Shown: one piece after another, positions 34,344-64,000 of the stretch
Position numbering within the stretch: the stretch's first letter is position 1
Layout of the letters: each line of letters begins with the position of its first letter
Assembly: GCF_900100975.1 (NCBI RefSeq)
Contig: NZ_FNFX01000004.1
Span: forward strand, 186,001-250,000
Source: Methylophilus rhizosphaerae
GTDB taxonomy: Bacteria > Pseudomonadota > Gammaproteobacteria > Burkholderiales > Methylophilaceae
DNA length: 64,000 nucleotides
Direction: 5' to 3'
The notes under the pieces: generated by a model
What the model saw: the letters and a program-made list of their open reading frames with translations, nothing else
Database searches by the model: none
Told to the model about the DNA's origin: nothing
Program-made: the position numbers and the translations under genes

Positions 34344-35735
34344 TTACATGGTATAAGCACGTTCGCCATGCTCTGTCGTATCCAGGCCTTCGCGCTCGTA
34401 TTCTTCACTCACACGCAGGCCGATCACGGCATCTACAATTTTGTACAGAATCACACTTACGATACCGGTCCAGATCAGTGTCACCACCACAGCGATGATT
34501 TGTACGGTCACCTGGTCACCCATGGACACCCCTTCGGCGTATCCAACACCACCCAGGCCGGGCGACATCAGGATACCGGTGCCGACTGCGCCCCAGATAC
34601 CCGCCAGGCCGTGTACACCAAAGACATCCAGGGAATCATCATAGCCCAGTGCCGCTTTCAGTTTGGTCACACCCCACAGGCTGACCAAGCTGGCAGTGAA
34701 GCCAAGGATGATGGAGCCCATCGGGCCGATGAAGCCACAAGCCGGGGTAATTGCCACCAGGCCGGCGACTGCACCAGATGCCGCACCCAGCATACTGGGC
34801 TTGCCGCGGAACAACCATTCAGCAAAGATCCAGCCCAGCACAGCTGCCGCAGTGGCCAGTTGTGTGTTAACCAGCACCATGCCAGCGGTAGCATCAGCCG
34901 CCAGTTCGCTGCCTACGTTGAAACCGAACCAGCCCACCCACAGCAGGGCAGCACCGACCATCGTCATGACCAGGTTATGCGGAGGCATGGCCTCTTTACC
35001 GTAACCGATACGCTTGCCCAGCATGATCGCGCCAATCAGCGCTGCCACACCGGCATTGATATGCACAACGGTACCACCGGCGAAGTCTTTGGCACCCAGT
35101 TCTGCCAGGTAGCCGCCACCCCATACCATATGGGCGATTGGGATATAAGCAAACGTGACCCATAGCGCGGTGAACAGCAGCACGGCGGAGAACTTCATAC
35201 GCTCGGCAAACCCACCGACAATCAGGGCAGGTGTCAGTGCAGCAAAGATCATCTGGAATGTCAGGAAGACATATTCAGGAATGGTGCCAGACAGGCTTTC
35301 AGTCGTAATGCCGGAAAGAAATGCCTTGCTCAAGCCACCGATAATCATATTGCCTTCGCTGAATGCCAGGCTGTAGCCATAGGCCGCCCACAATACGGAG
35401 ATAAGTGAGAACACGACAAACACTTGCATCAATACTGACAGCATGTTTTTCTGACGGACCAGGCCACCGTAGAACAATGCCAGGCCAGGAATCGTCATCA
35501 AGATCACCAGCACAGTGGCGATAATCATAAATGCAGTGTTGCCTACATCCAGAGTCGCAGGTGCTTCAGCGGCGGCAGCTTCTGCCGGTGCCGCTTCGGC
35601 AGCCGGTGCAGCCTCGGGTGCGGCAGTTTGTTCAATTGTCACAGTTTCCGTCACAGTCTCTTCAGCATACGTGACAGGCGTGGCAGCCAACCCCATCAGG
35701 GCAACCAGCGATAATACAGAAAGAATTTTCTTCAT
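34344..35735 (-). CDS. amtB: Ammonium transporter AmtB
   Basis: A 463-residue ammonium channel. A signal peptide (MKKILSVLSLVALMGLAATPVTYAEE) is followed by an Ala/Glu-rich stretch and eleven membrane helices. Recognisable parts are MTIPGLALFYGGLVRQKNMLS, the DFAGGTVVHINAGVAALIGA segment with the first pore histidine, and ALGYDDSLDVFGVHGLAGIWGAVGTG with the second. The cytoplasmic C-terminus ends YEREGLDTTEHGERAYTM, the tail that receives the T-loop of GlnK. It is the last gene of a nitrogen operon, 15 bp after glnK. Confidence 0.96.
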   Translation of the reverse strand: MKKILSVLSLVALMGLAATPVTYAEETVTETVTIEQTAAPEAAPAAEAAPAEAAAAEAPATLDVGNTAFMIIATVLVILMTIPGLALFYGGLVRQKNMLSVLMQVFVVFSLISVLWAAYGYSLAFSEGNMIIGGLSKAFLSGITTESLSGTIPEYVFLTFQMIFAALTPALIVGGFAERMKFSAVLLFTALWVTFAYIPIAHMVWGGGYLAELGAKDFAGGTVVHINAGVAALIGAIMLGKRIGYGKEAMPPHNLVMTMVGAALLWVGWFGFNVGSELAADATAGMVLVNTQLATAAAVLGWIFAEWLFRGKPSMLGAASGAVAGLVAITPACGFIGPMGSIILGFTASLVSLWGVTKLKAALGYDDSLDVFGVHGLAGIWGAVGTGILMSPGLGGVGYAEGVSMGDQVTVQIIAVVVTLIWTGIVSVILYKIVDAVIGLRVSEEYEREGLDTTEHGERAYTM

Positions 35736-36144: not shown

Positions 36145-37071
36145 TTAGAAAGTACGTGTCAGTGTAAATACTGCACGACCATCATTCAGGTTCTTAGTCT
36201 CCGGGCTACCGTTAAAACTGGTACCGCCATAGCCTTTATCACCCCAGTACCGGCTGTTATTTGCGCCCACCCAGTACAAGCCCGCCGTCCAGCCTTCTGC
36301 TGAACCGATCTTGAATGCCTTGCTTAACCCGATCTTGTAATCCGTGTAATCAGGATTGGTTGCGCCGGAAATACTGCTGCTTGGCGCCGCACCGCCGCCA
36401 ATGGCACTGAAGTCTGCCGCCGGATCCAGCTTGCCGTTCACATTCAGATGACCCACGTGGCCTACCAGCATCAACTCCCACCATGGCAGTGGATAAGCCA
36501 TGTTCAATTCCACGTAAGTCGTCCCTTTGGTCCCACCATCCCAGCCAGTATCTTTCTCCGCACCGAACCAATCCGTCAATGTATAAGACAGCTTGGCACT
36601 GAAGTAGCTATAAGATATACCTATGTTCGCTTCGGTGGTGTTCCATTTGCCGCCTTTCGGGGTTTGGCGCAAGCCTGCAGGATCACCATAGGCATTGTAT
36701 TTTTTCCATGAACCGCCCGGGTACAGATAGCTAATCAGGCCCGCTGTCCAGCCCAGGCCATCCACTGCGGAAATCGTACCATTGTAACCGCCATATACAT
36801 CGATTTCCCCCGTCGCATCCGGGAAAGTATTCGGCGTGACGTTGGAGCCCCAGGTGCCAACATAAAAGCCGCTGTCATGAGTAATATCGATACCCCCTTG
36901 TACAGCCGGCTTATGCCAGTTTTGGGAGATACCACGTGCATAGTAATCGGAAACCACCCCAACGTTAGCGGTCGCTGCCCATGCAGATTTTGCTTCTTCC
37001 TCAGCGGCATAAGAAGCCTGTGCAAAAGACAAAGCACTTAATACGGCTGTAAGTAAAATAGATTGACGCAT
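36145..37071 (-). CDS. TorF family putative outer-membrane porin
   Basis: A 308-residue protein with a clear signal peptide (MRQSILLTAVLSALSFAQASYA) and then ANVGVVSDYYARGISQNWHKPAVQGGIDI, the opening of the TorF/TIGR02001 family of predicted outer-membrane barrels; it ends in phenylalanine (VFTLTRTF), as barrels do. The longer frame to 37182 includes promoter DNA and is rejected. In many beta- and gammaproteobacteria this gene precedes glnK-amtB, so a role in passage of ammonium or small nitrogen compounds is likely but unproven. A sigma-54 promoter lies 73 bp upstream. Confidence 0.82.
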   Translation of the reverse strand: MRQSILLTAVLSALSFAQASYAAEEEAKSAWAATANVGVVSDYYARGISQNWHKPAVQGGIDITHDSGFYVGTWGSNVTPNTFPDATGEIDVYGGYNGTISAVDGLGWTAGLISYLYPGGSWKKYNAYGDPAGLRQTPKGGKWNTTEANIGISYSYFSAKLSYTLTDWFGAEKDTGWDGGTKGTTYVELNMAYPLPWWELMLVGHVGHLNVNGKLDPAADFSAIGGGAAPSSSISGATNPDYTDYKIGLSKAFKIGSAEGWTAGLYWVGANNSRYWGDKGYGGTSFNGSPETKNLNDGRAVFTLTRTF

Positions 37072-37143
37072 GAATAAGCCCTCTCTCTTTAAAGTCTTTA
37101 ATCGAATTGTTGTAAATAAGCCTGTAACAACACTTCTCTCTAA

Positions 37144-37158
37144 GCAATCCATGTGCCA
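37144..37158 (-). promoter_or_regulatory. Sigma-54 promoter of the TorF-glnK-amtB operon
   Basis: On the minus strand TGGCACATGGATTGC matches the -24/-12 consensus with GG-N10-GC. The start site would be near 37132, some 60 bases before the porin ATG. NtrC control is expected from the genes, though no clear NtrC site was found. Confidence 0.88.
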
Positions 37159-37176
37159 ACCAACATAATTATTTAT

Positions 37177-37189
37177 AATCAATTAGTTA
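37177..37189 (+). promoter_or_regulatory. IHF-like site upstream of the nitrogen operon promoter
   Basis: AATCAATTAGTTA fits WATCAANNNNTTR exactly, about 20-30 bp upstream of the -24 box. A second exact match on the other strand lies at 37201-37213. The surrounding DNA is very AT-rich, so chance matches are possible. Confidence 0.5.
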
Positions 37190-37296
37190 TAATTAAAATA
37201 TAAATAATTGATTAAAATAAATTATTTAACTATTTGATTTTAATAAATTAAAACAGATTTTCAATTTTCAAATAATGCCATTATCGTTGCTATCCA

Positions 37297-61165: not shown

Positions 61166-61194
61166 AAAAAAAAGCCAACCCTTGCGGGTTGGCC
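61166..61194 (-). terminator. Terminator of the xoxF-cytochrome operon
   Basis: On the minus strand GGCCAACCC-gcaa-GGGTTGGC is followed by a run of T residues, about 31 bp after the cytochrome stop. Confidence 0.9.
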
Positions 61195-61224: not shown

Positions 61225-61545
61225 TTAGAGGCTTAACACCCACTGGACGATGGTCTTGATATCTTCGTCCTTCACTTGCGGGCTGTTAGGCGGCATAGGC
61301 ATATCGCCCCACACACCACCGCCACCGGTTTTCACTTTCTGCACCAGCCTGGCTTCAGCCGTTTTGTCGCCTTTGTACTTGGCAGCAACTTCCTTGTAGG
61401 CCGGGCCGACCACTTTTTTGTCTACGCCGTGGCACAGCAGGCAGCCACTTTTCTGGGCCAATGCCTCGGCGCCATTGCCAGCAATCGCTGAAGCCGTGGC
61501 CGCCAGTAATGCGGTGGCCAGCAAGGTTTTATTGAATAATTGCAT
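61225..61545 (-). CDS. Cytochrome c551-type electron carrier next to xoxF
   Basis: A 106-residue periplasmic class I cytochrome c. The signal peptide MQLFNKTLLATALLAATASAIA is followed by the haem site CLLCH (Cys35, Cys38, His39) and the axial methionine in GDMPMPPN (Met84 by alignment with c551), ending VQWVLSL. It starts 13 bp after xoxF on the same strand and is likely its electron acceptor or a carrier onward to the oxidase. It is smaller than typical XoxG/MxaG cytochromes, so it is not called xoxG. A strong terminator follows. Confidence 0.88.
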   Translation of the reverse strand: MQLFNKTLLATALLAATASAIAGNGAEALAQKSGCLLCHGVDKKVVGPAYKEVAAKYKGDKTAEARLVQKVKTGGGGVWGDMPMPPNSPQVKDEDIKTIVQWVLSL

Positions 61546-61558
61546 TGGGTTTCCCTCC

Positions 61559-63427
61559 CTATAAACTGAATACGTTCATGGCACCGCCACCAGGGGCGGC
61601 ATTGTATTTGGTCAGCTCTTTGTAGCCTCCTGCTGCGCCCAGGCCATCGGTATCATTGGTCAGGCCCAGGTTCATGGCCACGCCAGCCCAGCCCCCAATG
61701 CCGGACAACACGCCTACGTATTGCCTGCCTTTGTGGCCGTAAGTGATCATGTTGCCGACCACGCCGGAACCCACCTGGAACCGCCATAATTCTTTGCCGG
61801 TTTTGGCATCCACGGCTTTGGCCCAGCGATCCAGCGTGCCGTAAAACACCAGGTCAGATGCCGTGACCAATGCGCCGCCCCAGGCCGAGAATCTCTCTTT
61901 GTTGTACCAGCGGGCTTTGCCTTTGAGGCCATCCCAGGCCATAAAGCCGCCCATCACACCATCCGGGCCGGCGAACATGGTCAGGGTGGCACCTACCCAT
62001 GGCTGGCCTGCCACGTATTTGGACTCCACGGGCTCATAGGTCATGCAGACGTGGTTCAGCGGGACGTAGAAGGTTTTATTCTTCGGTGAATAAGCCGCTG
62101 GTTGCTCGTCTTTCACACCCAGGGCAGACGGGCAAACACCTTTGGCGTTGTAATCCTGGTGGGTGGAGTACTTGGGATCCTTGACCGGGATGCCGGTTTT
62201 CAGGTCAATCTTGCTTGCCCAGTTGACGAACGGGTGCATTTTCTCGGCCACCAGTAAGGTGCCATTGGTGCGGTCAAAAGTATAGCCAAAGCCGTTACGG
62301 TCAAAATGCGAGGCCAGTTGCTTGCCATTGGCTTCCCACAGGATGATTTCGTTCATGCCGTCGTAATCCCACTCGTCATGCGGCGTCATCTGGTAACCCC
62401 AGCGTGCCATGCCGGTGTCGAGGTCGCGCGCAAAAATCGTCATCGACCACTTGTTGTCGCCAGGACGCACGTCCGGGTTCCAGGTACCCGGGTTGCCGGT
62501 GCCGTAATACATCAGGTTCAGTGCCGGGTCGTAGGAGTACCAGCCCCAGGTCGGGCCGCCGCCATTCTGCCAGCCATCTTTCTGCTGTTGTGGTTTCAGC
62601 CAGGTACGCACCCCCAGGTTAGCTTCAGGGTATTTCAATTGCGATTTATCCAGCGGCTTGAAAGAACCGCCTTCCCGGTTGCCACCATTGACATCCTCAT
62701 ACACGGACAGGGCGCTGTAATGCGGATTTTCCTTGTTGAAATCCTGGCCGATCAGCATTTCGCTATCCGGGCCGGTGCTATAGGCTTTCCACGCCAGGCT
62801 GCCATCTTTGATGTTGTAGGCAGAGATGTGGCAACGCACGCCGAACTCACCGCCGGAACAGCCCGTCACCACTTTGTCTTTAAATACATGCGGTACATTG
62901 GTATTGGCAGAGCCGGTTCTCGGGTCATTGACTTGCACATCCCACAATCTGGCACCGGTTTTTGCATCCAGGGCAACCAGTACACCATTATTCTGTTGCA
63001 GGAAAATCTTGCCGTCACCGTAACCCAGGCCTTTATTCACGTTGTCACAGCACAATACGGATTGCACATCCGGATTCTGTTTGGGGAAATAGGACCACAG
63101 GATTTTCTGGTTGTCGTCCAGATCCAGCGCATACACATTGTTCGGGAATGCAGTATGGATATACATGATATTGCCAATCACCAGCGGCGCGCCTTCGTGG
63201 CCGCGATTGACACCGGTAGCGAAAGTCCAGGCCAGTTTCAGCTTCTTGACGTTGCTTTTGTTGATTTGTGACAGGCGGCTATAGCCCTGGTTGGCGTAGT
63301 CTTTACGTGCCATGGGCCACTGGTTGTCGTCCTTCATCATTGCGTCCAGCTCGGCATTGGCCCATGCGCCGGCACTGAGGCTGCCGAGTAGCATTGTGCT
63401 GATCGCAAGCTTGATACGTTGTTGCAT
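61559..63427 (-). CDS. xoxF: Lanthanide-dependent methanol dehydrogenase XoxF
   Basis: A 622-residue periplasmic PQQ quinoprotein. The signal peptide ends GAWA/NAE. The vicinal disulfide is VLCCDNV (Cys126-127). Predicted metal ligands by motif are Glu194 (SGGEFGV) and Asn312 (GTGNPGTW); the catalytic Asp354 and the extra lanthanide ligand Asp356 are in PHDEWDYDGMNE, where MxaF has Ala at the second position. Compared with MxaF from memory there is an extra stretch of about 34 residues between the NPHY and GGGPTWGW segments (about 237-290), a feature I associate with the XoxF4 group of Methylophilaceae. It oxidises methanol to formaldehyde or formate. GGAGG precedes the ATG by 7 bases. No mxa or xoxJ gene is in the window. 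Confidence 0.96.
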   Translation of the reverse strand: MQQRIKLAISTMLLGSLSAGAWANAELDAMMKDDNQWPMARKDYANQGYSRLSQINKSNVKKLKLAWTFATGVNRGHEGAPLVIGNIMYIHTAFPNNVYALDLDDNQKILWSYFPKQNPDVQSVLCCDNVNKGLGYGDGKIFLQQNNGVLVALDAKTGARLWDVQVNDPRTGSANTNVPHVFKDKVVTGCSGGEFGVRCHISAYNIKDGSLAWKAYSTGPDSEMLIGQDFNKENPHYSALSVYEDVNGGNREGGSFKPLDKSQLKYPEANLGVRTWLKPQQQKDGWQNGGGPTWGWYSYDPALNLMYYGTGNPGTWNPDVRPGDNKWSMTIFARDLDTGMARWGYQMTPHDEWDYDGMNEIILWEANGKQLASHFDRNGFGYTFDRTNGTLLVAEKMHPFVNWASKIDLKTGIPVKDPKYSTHQDYNAKGVCPSALGVKDEQPAAYSPKNKTFYVPLNHVCMTYEPVESKYVAGQPWVGATLTMFAGPDGVMGGFMAWDGLKGKARWYNKERFSAWGGALVTASDLVFYGTLDRWAKAVDAKTGKELWRFQVGSGVVGNMITYGHKGRQYVGVLSGIGGWAGVAMNLGLTNDTDGLGAAGGYKELTKYNAAPGGGAMNVFSL

Positions 63428-63518
63428 AAATAACCTCCAAAATGGTTGCGGTGAAGCTGGAATATGTGGTGTTACAAGCGGTCAGCAAAGACTGCGTTTG
63501 TGACGGCCTGCCTAAGAT

Positions 63519-63534
63519 TGCAATGCACGTGCCA
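63519..63534 (-). promoter_or_regulatory. Sigma-54 promoter of xoxF
   Basis: Minus-strand TGGCACGTGCATTGCA is a full match to the TGGCACG-N4-TTGCA consensus, with GG at 63533-63532 and GC at 63521-63520. The start site would be near 63508, giving a leader of about 81 bases. Confidence 0.88.
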
Positions 63535-63574
63535 ATCCGTAACAGTATTTTGGAAGAAATAAAAAATAGATTAG

Positions 63575-63587
63575 AATCAATCGCTTA
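63575..63587 (+). promoter_or_regulatory. IHF-like site between xoxF and its divergent regulator
   Basis: AATCAATCGCTTA fits WATCAANNNNTTR exactly, 41 bp upstream of the xoxF -24 box, the position expected for a DNA bend between activator and promoter. Confidence 0.6.
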
Positions 63588-63695
63588 ATGAAGTATGAAA
63601 ACGGGCATGACAATCTGCCGGCGGGCGTGAACTGTTCATGGCTGTGTCATACTGGTACAGTTGTTCAATACGATGTGACAGGTGTTCGGTTTTAA

Positions 63696-64000
63696 ATGCC
63701 CAATAAATACTCCCCCTCTGCTTCCCAAATAGCGCAGCCTGGCGTGCGTGATGACCAGCGTGCCATTGCCGAGGCGATTGCGCGCTCCTGGCGACGTTGC
63801 ATGGTCAAAGGGGTGGATGAGCAGGCGCCGGTCGCAGATCAAATCATTACCGCACAAGAACTGGCACAGCGCCTGGAAAAGAACCGCTTGCTGCTGACGC
63901 ATGCCGAACCGGAGATGACGACACTCAGCGAGCAAATTGCCCATACGCGCAGCCTGGTGATTCTGACCGATAACGAAGGCGTTATTTTGCGCACCATGGG
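63696..64000 (+). CDS. N-terminal part of an AcoR-like sigma-54-dependent activator (cut by window end)
   Basis: An open frame from the ATG at 63696 that runs off the window (about 101 residues seen). It has IAEAIARSWRRCMVKGVDEQAP, then AQRLEKNRLLLTHAEPEMTTLSEQIAHTRSLVILTDNEGVILRTMG, the N-terminal sensor (GAF-type) opening of the AcoR family of enhancer-binding proteins. The AAA+ and Fis domains would follow beyond the end and cannot be confirmed. It is divergent from xoxF, which has a sigma-54 promoter, so it is the obvious candidate activator, perhaps sensing a substrate or product of methanol oxidation. Confidence 0.75.
   Translation, partial: MPNKYSPSASQIAQPGVRDDQRAIAEAIARSWRRCMVKGVDEQAPVADQIITAQELAQRLEKNRLLLTHAEPEMTTLSEQIAHTRSLVILTDNEGVILRTM

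Follow-up and report, generated by a model that had tools for sequence, protein, structure and literature searches.

The window analysed here, that is, the whole stretch of 64,000 nucleotides from Methylophilus rhizosphaerae, carries near its right-hand end a gene of the xoxF type, a small cytochrome gene in the same direction and, divergent from both, the 5′ part of an activator gene. The features of this region, in window positions, are as follows:

61173–61194, minus strand: terminator-like hairpin with T-run after the cytochrome gene (four in the region against 3.0 expected by shuffling, not above chance)
61225–61545, minus strand: small c-type cytochrome of 106 aa, co-directional, 13 bp after xoxF
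61559–63427, minus strand: xoxF, lanthanide-type PQQ methanol dehydrogenase of 622 aa with Asp-x-Asp, very probably XoxF4-2 as judged from trees
63434–63438, minus strand: Shine-Dalgarno sequence GGAGG of xoxF, present in 13 of 13 aligned Methylophilus rows
63508, minus strand: predicted xoxF transcription start, placed from the -12 geometry only, at the same position as in the earlier note on this DNA
63519–63534, minus strand: sigma-54 -24/-12 element TGGCACGTGCATTGCA upstream of xoxF, with GG at 63532–63533 and GC at 63520–63521
63550–63577, plus strand: weak sigma-70-like site, a candidate for the activator gene, overlapping the IHF site (one found against 2.0 expected)
63575–63587, plus strand: IHF consensus match AATCAATCGCTTA, with an A-tract at 63561–63566, 40 bp from the -24/-12 element
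63630–63690, no strand assigned: upstream block conserved in alignments, with further half-site-like words TGAACA/TGTCAC
63642–63660, minus strand: candidate activator-binding dyad CTGTACCAGTATGACACAG (YTGT-N11-ACAR) of 19 bp, about 125 bp above the -24 box
63696–64000, plus strand: 5′ part of the divergent activator gene, whose full ORF ends beyond the window (L002:11603, or 65603 in window numbering)

The window XoxF has the extra metal-binding Asp two residues past the catalytic Asp, reading WDYD against WDFA in the MxaF-type protein of the same genome, and the Glu and Asn ligands are present as well. The genome (2.76 Mb) encodes five XoxF proteins, namely the window XoxF and four others at 71–76% identity, together with two more distant PQQ dehydrogenases, one of them of the MxaF type. 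It has been reported that the XoxF4-2 type corresponds to Mmol_1770 of M. mobilis JLW8 and is lanthanide-dependent (PMC6028718), that it is about 70% identical to the main type, both M. methylotrophus and M. mobilis 13 having a homolog of it (PMC4109929), and that a small cytochrome gene adjoins xoxF of the Mmol_1770 type (PMC3728764). In the trees, the remaining XoxF4 genes form a group that includes neither the window xoxF nor a copy from M. mobilis 13 (L094), and it is via this copy that the window gene is very probably to be assigned to XoxF4-2. The small cytochrome gene was found beside xoxF at 14 of 29 loci searched, two of the 29 (L212 and L216) ending too early.

The promoter region of xoxF

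First of all, the full-consensus -24/-12 element that the earlier note had placed upstream of xoxF was confirmed: TGGCACGTGCATTGCA has 0 mismatches to the consensus TGGCACGNNNNTTGCW, with the form TGGCACG-N4-TTGCW, GG near -24, GC near -12 and the fixed spacing between them, and it is the sole 0-mismatch match within the 64-kb window. As a literal 16-mer it occurs once in the genome, which has one copy of rpoN. A scan of the region for sigma-70-like sites found none on the strand of xoxF. Elements with at most two mismatches number 808 in the genome against 300 in the reversed control, a count too loose for ranking sites, and since its listing holds no 0-mismatch row, the known element included, it is unusable for judging uniqueness. 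In the xoxF leader, at about 63480–63505 and just downstream of the predicted start, a GTCACAAAAGAAGCCTTTG-like stretch is conserved in Methylophilus.

As for IHF, the sequence agrees with the consensus WATCAANNNNTTR and has the flanking A-tract, so the exact site claimed earlier does exist; since the window holds six consensus matches against 2.1 expected, the match is weak on its own. Among the 13 closest Methylophilus loci, the site is exact in nine and has one mismatch in four, always in the same position, 53 bp upstream of the element start, and it is missing from three loci of the same genus (L066–L068). Over 22 representative loci, five are exact and four have one mismatch, a grade that arises in about one third of shuffles, and the rest are no better than two. 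The site is thus more typical of the closest Methylophilus than of the family as a whole, and the comparison lends good support to help from IHF in close Methylophilus only.

Conservation of the gene pair and its promoter

The activator was searched for in 150 Methylophilaceae genomes, and matches with E ≤ 1e-100 were obtained in 49 of them, 55 in all; a partial match (G139) was left out, and a contig-end record (L097) was used in a few comparisons only. At the loci L053–L082, where the activator is 61–100% identical, xoxF is divergent from it in 30 of 30. As for the 24 weaker matches, xoxF adjoins the activator in 11, and none was found in the stretch taken in 13. After identical intergenic regions had been dropped, the 55 loci gave 41 distinct regions (that of L067 being cut to 330 bp), from which the 22 representatives were chosen greedily at 80% similarity. 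At L067 (G142:C21) the activator has one internal TAA and xoxF is aligned as two pieces, perhaps because the locus is decaying or through sequencing error.

An alignment of the intergenic region in related genomes had been proposed in the earlier note, and its outcome favours that note's reading: a -24/-12 element with both doublets, GG and GC, unchanged and at most two mismatches is kept on the strand of xoxF in 41 of 41 distinct regions (six with 0, 27 with one and eight with two mismatches), and the dyad in 18 of the 22 representatives. Only 2.6% of 12,300 dinucleotide shuffles were as good, and on the opposite strand no element with at most two mismatches was found in any of the 41; since the loci are related, the 41 regions are not independent events. 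The distance between the aligned starts of activator and xoxF ranges from 268 bp to more than 400 bp, and the sequence drifts around the element. To judge from these comparisons, there is real conservation, beyond chance, of a putative sigma-54 module reserved for a single type of lanthanide methanol dehydrogenase. In the class-wide search for XoxF (E ≤ 1e-150), 2 of 369 genomes were found, one being the source genome itself; at the two loci of the other (L232 and L233) tblastn found no activator and the best element had three mismatches, which is too few cases to judge how far the arrangement extends beyond the family.

The other xoxF genes served as a control. XoxF genes that did not come from the activator search were checked for an element within 400 bp, at first 24 of them and then 26, including six of the MxaF type. 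It was found in 3 of the 24 (L212, L215 and L216), all of which group with the activator-linked genes in a 77-row tree, and activator sequence adjoins L215 and L216. Among the other XoxF4 genes, which are XoxF4-1-like and form one group in this quick 77-row tree (SH-aLRT 98), no element with at most two mismatches was found in any of 41 (21 + 20), and three have a 3-mismatch match, namely L188 and L189 (351 bp) and L197 (56 bp); nor does any of the six MxaF-type genes have an element with at most two mismatches. All 26 activator-adjacent XoxF rows fall outside the group of other XoxF4 genes. Identical protein rows were dropped from the trees, as were XoxF rows of fewer than 450 residues (L200 and L205), which both have no 5′ end for the promoter check. 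What the earlier note had claimed for xoxF is supported for the window copy, but this is only one of five paralogs, and the XoxF4-1-like group is without the element.

Among these genes, L212 (G018:C9:50300-55700) lies on the XoxF4-2 side and away from any activator found, and its 0-mismatch element and dyad are kept, as expected if the activator works in trans. In the same genome, a related activator, L160 (G018:C13:5400-10400), faces exaC, and it may serve both exaC and the L212 xoxF.

The activator, its relatives and its candidate binding site

The 101 aa of the activator that lie inside the window gave no Pfam match when searched alone. The complete ORF, of 635 aa, matches GAF at residues 73–201, Sigma54_activat at 331–494 (221.5 bits against a cut-off of 20.2), AAA_lid_14, and a C-terminal Fis-type HTH (HTH_8) at 599–631 with 47.1 bits, and its Walker A and B motifs read GETGAGKE and GGTLFLDE; no receiver domain was matched with Pfam. 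The AAA+ sigma-54 domain, whose absence the earlier note had named as grounds for abandoning its proposal, is present, and the Fis-type HTH lies beyond 64000. The GAFTGA loop predicted there is also in place, but in the window activator this sigma-54 contact loop reads GAYTGA. Over the loci L053–L096, GAYTGA is found in 21 of 44, all Methylophilus with at least 80% identity and including the 13 closest Methylophilus loci, and GAFTGA in 23 of 44, including three more distant loci of the same genus; a loop of the GAFTGA type is kept in 26 of 26 xoxF-adjacent activators. The change from F to Y in this loop is tolerated. The genome has 11 Sigma54_activat family matches in all, seven of them strong.

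When a profile of the activator's N-terminal part was compared with solved structures, E. coli DhaR came first (E 7e-33), followed by weak PAS matches, and DhaR was again the first match of a structure model predicted for residues 1–331 of L086 (mean pLDDT 81), which did not reveal the ligand. The sensor part is thus probably a GAF plus PAS module, since profile and model both match DhaR first and the profile then weakly matches PAS. The AcoR-type label given earlier agrees with the GAF/AAA+/HTH architecture, but the nearest solved structure to the N-terminal part is that of DhaR.

In the activator tree, the 26 xoxF-adjacent activators group with L157 in a single clade (100/98); L160 falls outside this clade, and another clade, of ten, lies beyond. 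The tree is midpoint-rooted, and the tool warned of long branches. At activators without xoxF, eight neighbours were scanned: five are the acetaldehyde dehydrogenase ExaC above cut-off (L160, L168, L169, L172 and L175), and the other three are a metallophosphoesterase-like gene (L157), a partial chemoreceptor match (L170) and a matchless ORF that may be in the wrong frame (L165). In all five exaC cases, -24/-12-like elements are present, at 2–4 mismatches. Nine neighbour ORFs at five activators from outside the family (L098–L101 and L126) included one aldehyde dehydrogenase (L101), and five of the nine, which Pfam did not match, may have been read in the wrong frame. The simplest story that these comparisons suggest is that the activator was recruited once, from aldehyde-dehydrogenase control to xoxF4-2. 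In the genome of L157, the activator is present twice with equal score (L157 and L158, G062:C1:943000-948000 and 1086000-1091000); the L157 activator faces the metallophosphoesterase-like gene in place of xoxF, and the dyad is still there.

The candidate site of the activator is the 19-bp dyad. YTGT-N11-ACAR occurs at 18 of the 22 representative loci against 0.5 expected, a count that is descriptive only, because the rule was set after the alignments had been viewed. When spacings of 4–19 were scanned, only 11 stood out (18 loci; runner-up 4). The dyad lies in a block conserved 105–155 bp above the element in Methylophilus, and a related block is seen in alignments of other genera. The TGTCA/TGACA motifs that had been suggested as activator sites do exist, at 63608–63612, 63645–63649 and 63676–63680, and the latter two, though not the first, lie in the Methylophilus-conserved block, but the likely site is the dyad at 63642–63660. 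It resembles the NifA site, TGT-N10-ACA.

A stricter pattern derived from the dyad has one 0-mismatch place in the source genome. Six further places with two mismatches bring the total to 7, which does not exceed the 11 of the reversed control, and the one inspected lies inside a coding gene. Since there is a single 0-mismatch place and the others are no more than control, the activator is probably dedicated to this one xoxF promoter; against such specificity, the loose dyad is also found upstream of four of the 21 genes from the other XoxF group. Above four xoxF genes of that group (L176 and L226–L228), a 19-mer, CTGTTGCAATTGAAAACAA, recurs at about 186–200 bp, possibly a conserved site of another kind.

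A proposed sigma-54 circuit for xoxF4-2 and its alternatives

At the level of sequence, the gene layout, the promoter element, the conserved dyad and their co-inheritance are established, and an RpoN/AcoR-type switch for xoxF, as proposed in the earlier note, is supported by rpoN, by the AAA+ domain and by an element and dyad conserved with the gene pair. It is suggested that xoxF (XoxF4-2) and the small cytochrome gene would be transcribed from a sigma-54 promoter; that the dedicated activator would bind the YTGT-N11-ACAR dyad; that IHF would bend the DNA between dyad and promoter, at least in close Methylophilus; and that the GAF/PAS region would perceive a small-molecule signal, upon which the AAA+ ring would open the sigma-54 complex. 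To this model as a whole we assign a probability of about 0.87. Because related activators face exaC, the likeliest signal would be a cytoplasmic alcohol or aldehyde, and formaldehyde or methanol would be natural candidates for a methanol oxidase.

It has been reported that xoxF copies in Methylophilaceae are expressed differently (PMC3728764, PMC5723320). Mmol_1770 of M. mobilis JLW8 was 4–6-fold up in situ compared with laboratory cultures, and its homologs in situ were 100-fold up in Methylovorus and very low in M. versatilis (PMC3728764). A separately controlled promoter fits these data, and methanol is not indicated by them as the cue: since Mmol_1770 rose in situ relative to laboratory cultures, simple induction by methanol finds no support.

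Nitrogen control is a frequent role of sigma-54, and the promoter and activator could be real but answer to a cue outside C1 metabolism (nitrogen, oxygen or redox), with xoxF4-2 as one of several outputs. The reported shifts of Methylophilaceae xoxF expression with nitrogen source and oxygen (PMC5723320), like the in situ rise of Mmol_1770, agree with such a cue, but the single 0-mismatch place of the dyad pattern and the 2-mismatch places, no more frequent than in the control, speak against it, as does the match of the activator to GAF but to no receiver domain; this possibility is regarded as rather unlikely.

It may also be asked whether lanthanide is the signal, perceived by the activator itself or by way of XoxF, in a sigma-54 version of the rare-earth switch. 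XoxF4-2 is lanthanide-dependent (PMC6028718), and the switches described so far use other regulators (PMC11845868). The sensor, however, looks like GAF/PAS in a DNA-binding and hence cytoplasmic protein, XoxF is periplasmic (PMC11845868), and the related activators face exaC, so that a direct lanthanide signal to the activator is the less likely course and the proposal as a whole appears improbable.

DhaR uses sigma-70, and as E. coli DhaR is the closest solved relative of the N-terminal part, the activator might act in the same way through a sigma-70 promoter, with the -24/-12 element as a relic; this is judged very unlikely, the GAFTGA-type loop being kept in 26 of 26 xoxF-adjacent activators and the element in 41 of 41 regions while its surroundings drift. 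That the element is a chance match and the neighbour gene regulates something else could draw on the four window matches with at most one mismatch (1.6 expected) and on the 808 loose genome places, but it is rejected with near certainty by conservation in 41 of 41 loci, by the control of 0 of 41 in the other XoxF group and by the persistence of the element in L212, which no longer adjoins an activator.

Taking the sigma-54 model further, two regimes may be envisaged from these comparisons: XoxF4-1 would be expressed without sigma-54, and XoxF4-2 would stand under a once-recruited, exaC-derived activator that reads a cytoplasmic C1 alcohol or aldehyde and not lanthanide. This extension is put forward tentatively, at somewhat less than even odds.

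The proposed module is ordinary in kind and, within the literature searched, new in its target. BmoR of Thauera butanivorans, an alcohol-responsive sigma-54 activator of alkane monooxygenase, is likewise a ligand-responsive bEBP at a sigma-54 promoter of an oxidative pathway, with alcohols as its ligand (PMC6366067), but its target is a monooxygenase and not a methanol dehydrogenase, and the two are likened by description, not by sequence. MmoR and the sMMO promoter of methanotrophs, again likened by description, share the sigma-54 element (there YTGGCACGrNNNTTGCW), a GAF-type activator and C1 metabolism, with rpoN needed in Methylosinus (PMC5874634), while the enzyme step is another and mmoR is found within the mmo operon or close to it. 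Closer to hand, the AcoR-like paralogs of the Methylophilaceae are 45–54% identical activators, five of those scanned facing exaC; they differ in the target gene, and YTGT-N11-ACAR occurs in L160 only of 11 loci (L160, L165 and L167–L175). MxbDM, MxcQE, MxaB/MxaY and PedS2/PedR2 likewise decide which alcohol dehydrogenase is expressed, but they are two-component or response-regulator systems with a lanthanide switch and are not called sigma-54 dependent in the parts of the review concerned (PMC11845868).

According to the earlier note, no RpoN/AcoR switch was known for xoxF. This stands insofar as no proposal of a sigma-54 promoter, site or circuit for xoxF was found in the literature searched, which included parts of PMC5623727 and PMC12403871 and was not exhaustive; in the main text of PMC12316311 and PMC3162934, methanol and Methylo are not mentioned. 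Such a neighbour was, however, already present in a 2024 review, where a GAF/sigma-54 regulator is named in the legend to a figure of xox gene maps, the sole occurrence of 'sigma 54' in that text (PMC11845868). According to the same review, the regulation of xoxF needs further study (PMC11845868), and xoxF mutants exist in Methylophilaceae (PMC6028718).

If the two-regime reading is true, no earlier case of a lanthanide enzyme under a sigma-54 circuit is known within the literature searched. The arrangement is kept in related genera and missing from the sister copies examined, and differences in the conditions that switch on the several copies may be explained by it. For one xoxF copy, a promoter and an activator are now at hand, together with a probable binding site, and a part for a C1-responsive biosensor may come of them.

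Elsewhere in the window, at 37143–37158 on the minus strand, there is a one-mismatch -24/-12 element with three IHF-consensus matches at 37177–37239. It lies upstream of a Gcw_chp-family gene (36148–37071, minus strand), with an ammonium transporter gene (34347–35735, minus strand) downstream, and may be another sigma-54 promoter, one concerned with nitrogen control.
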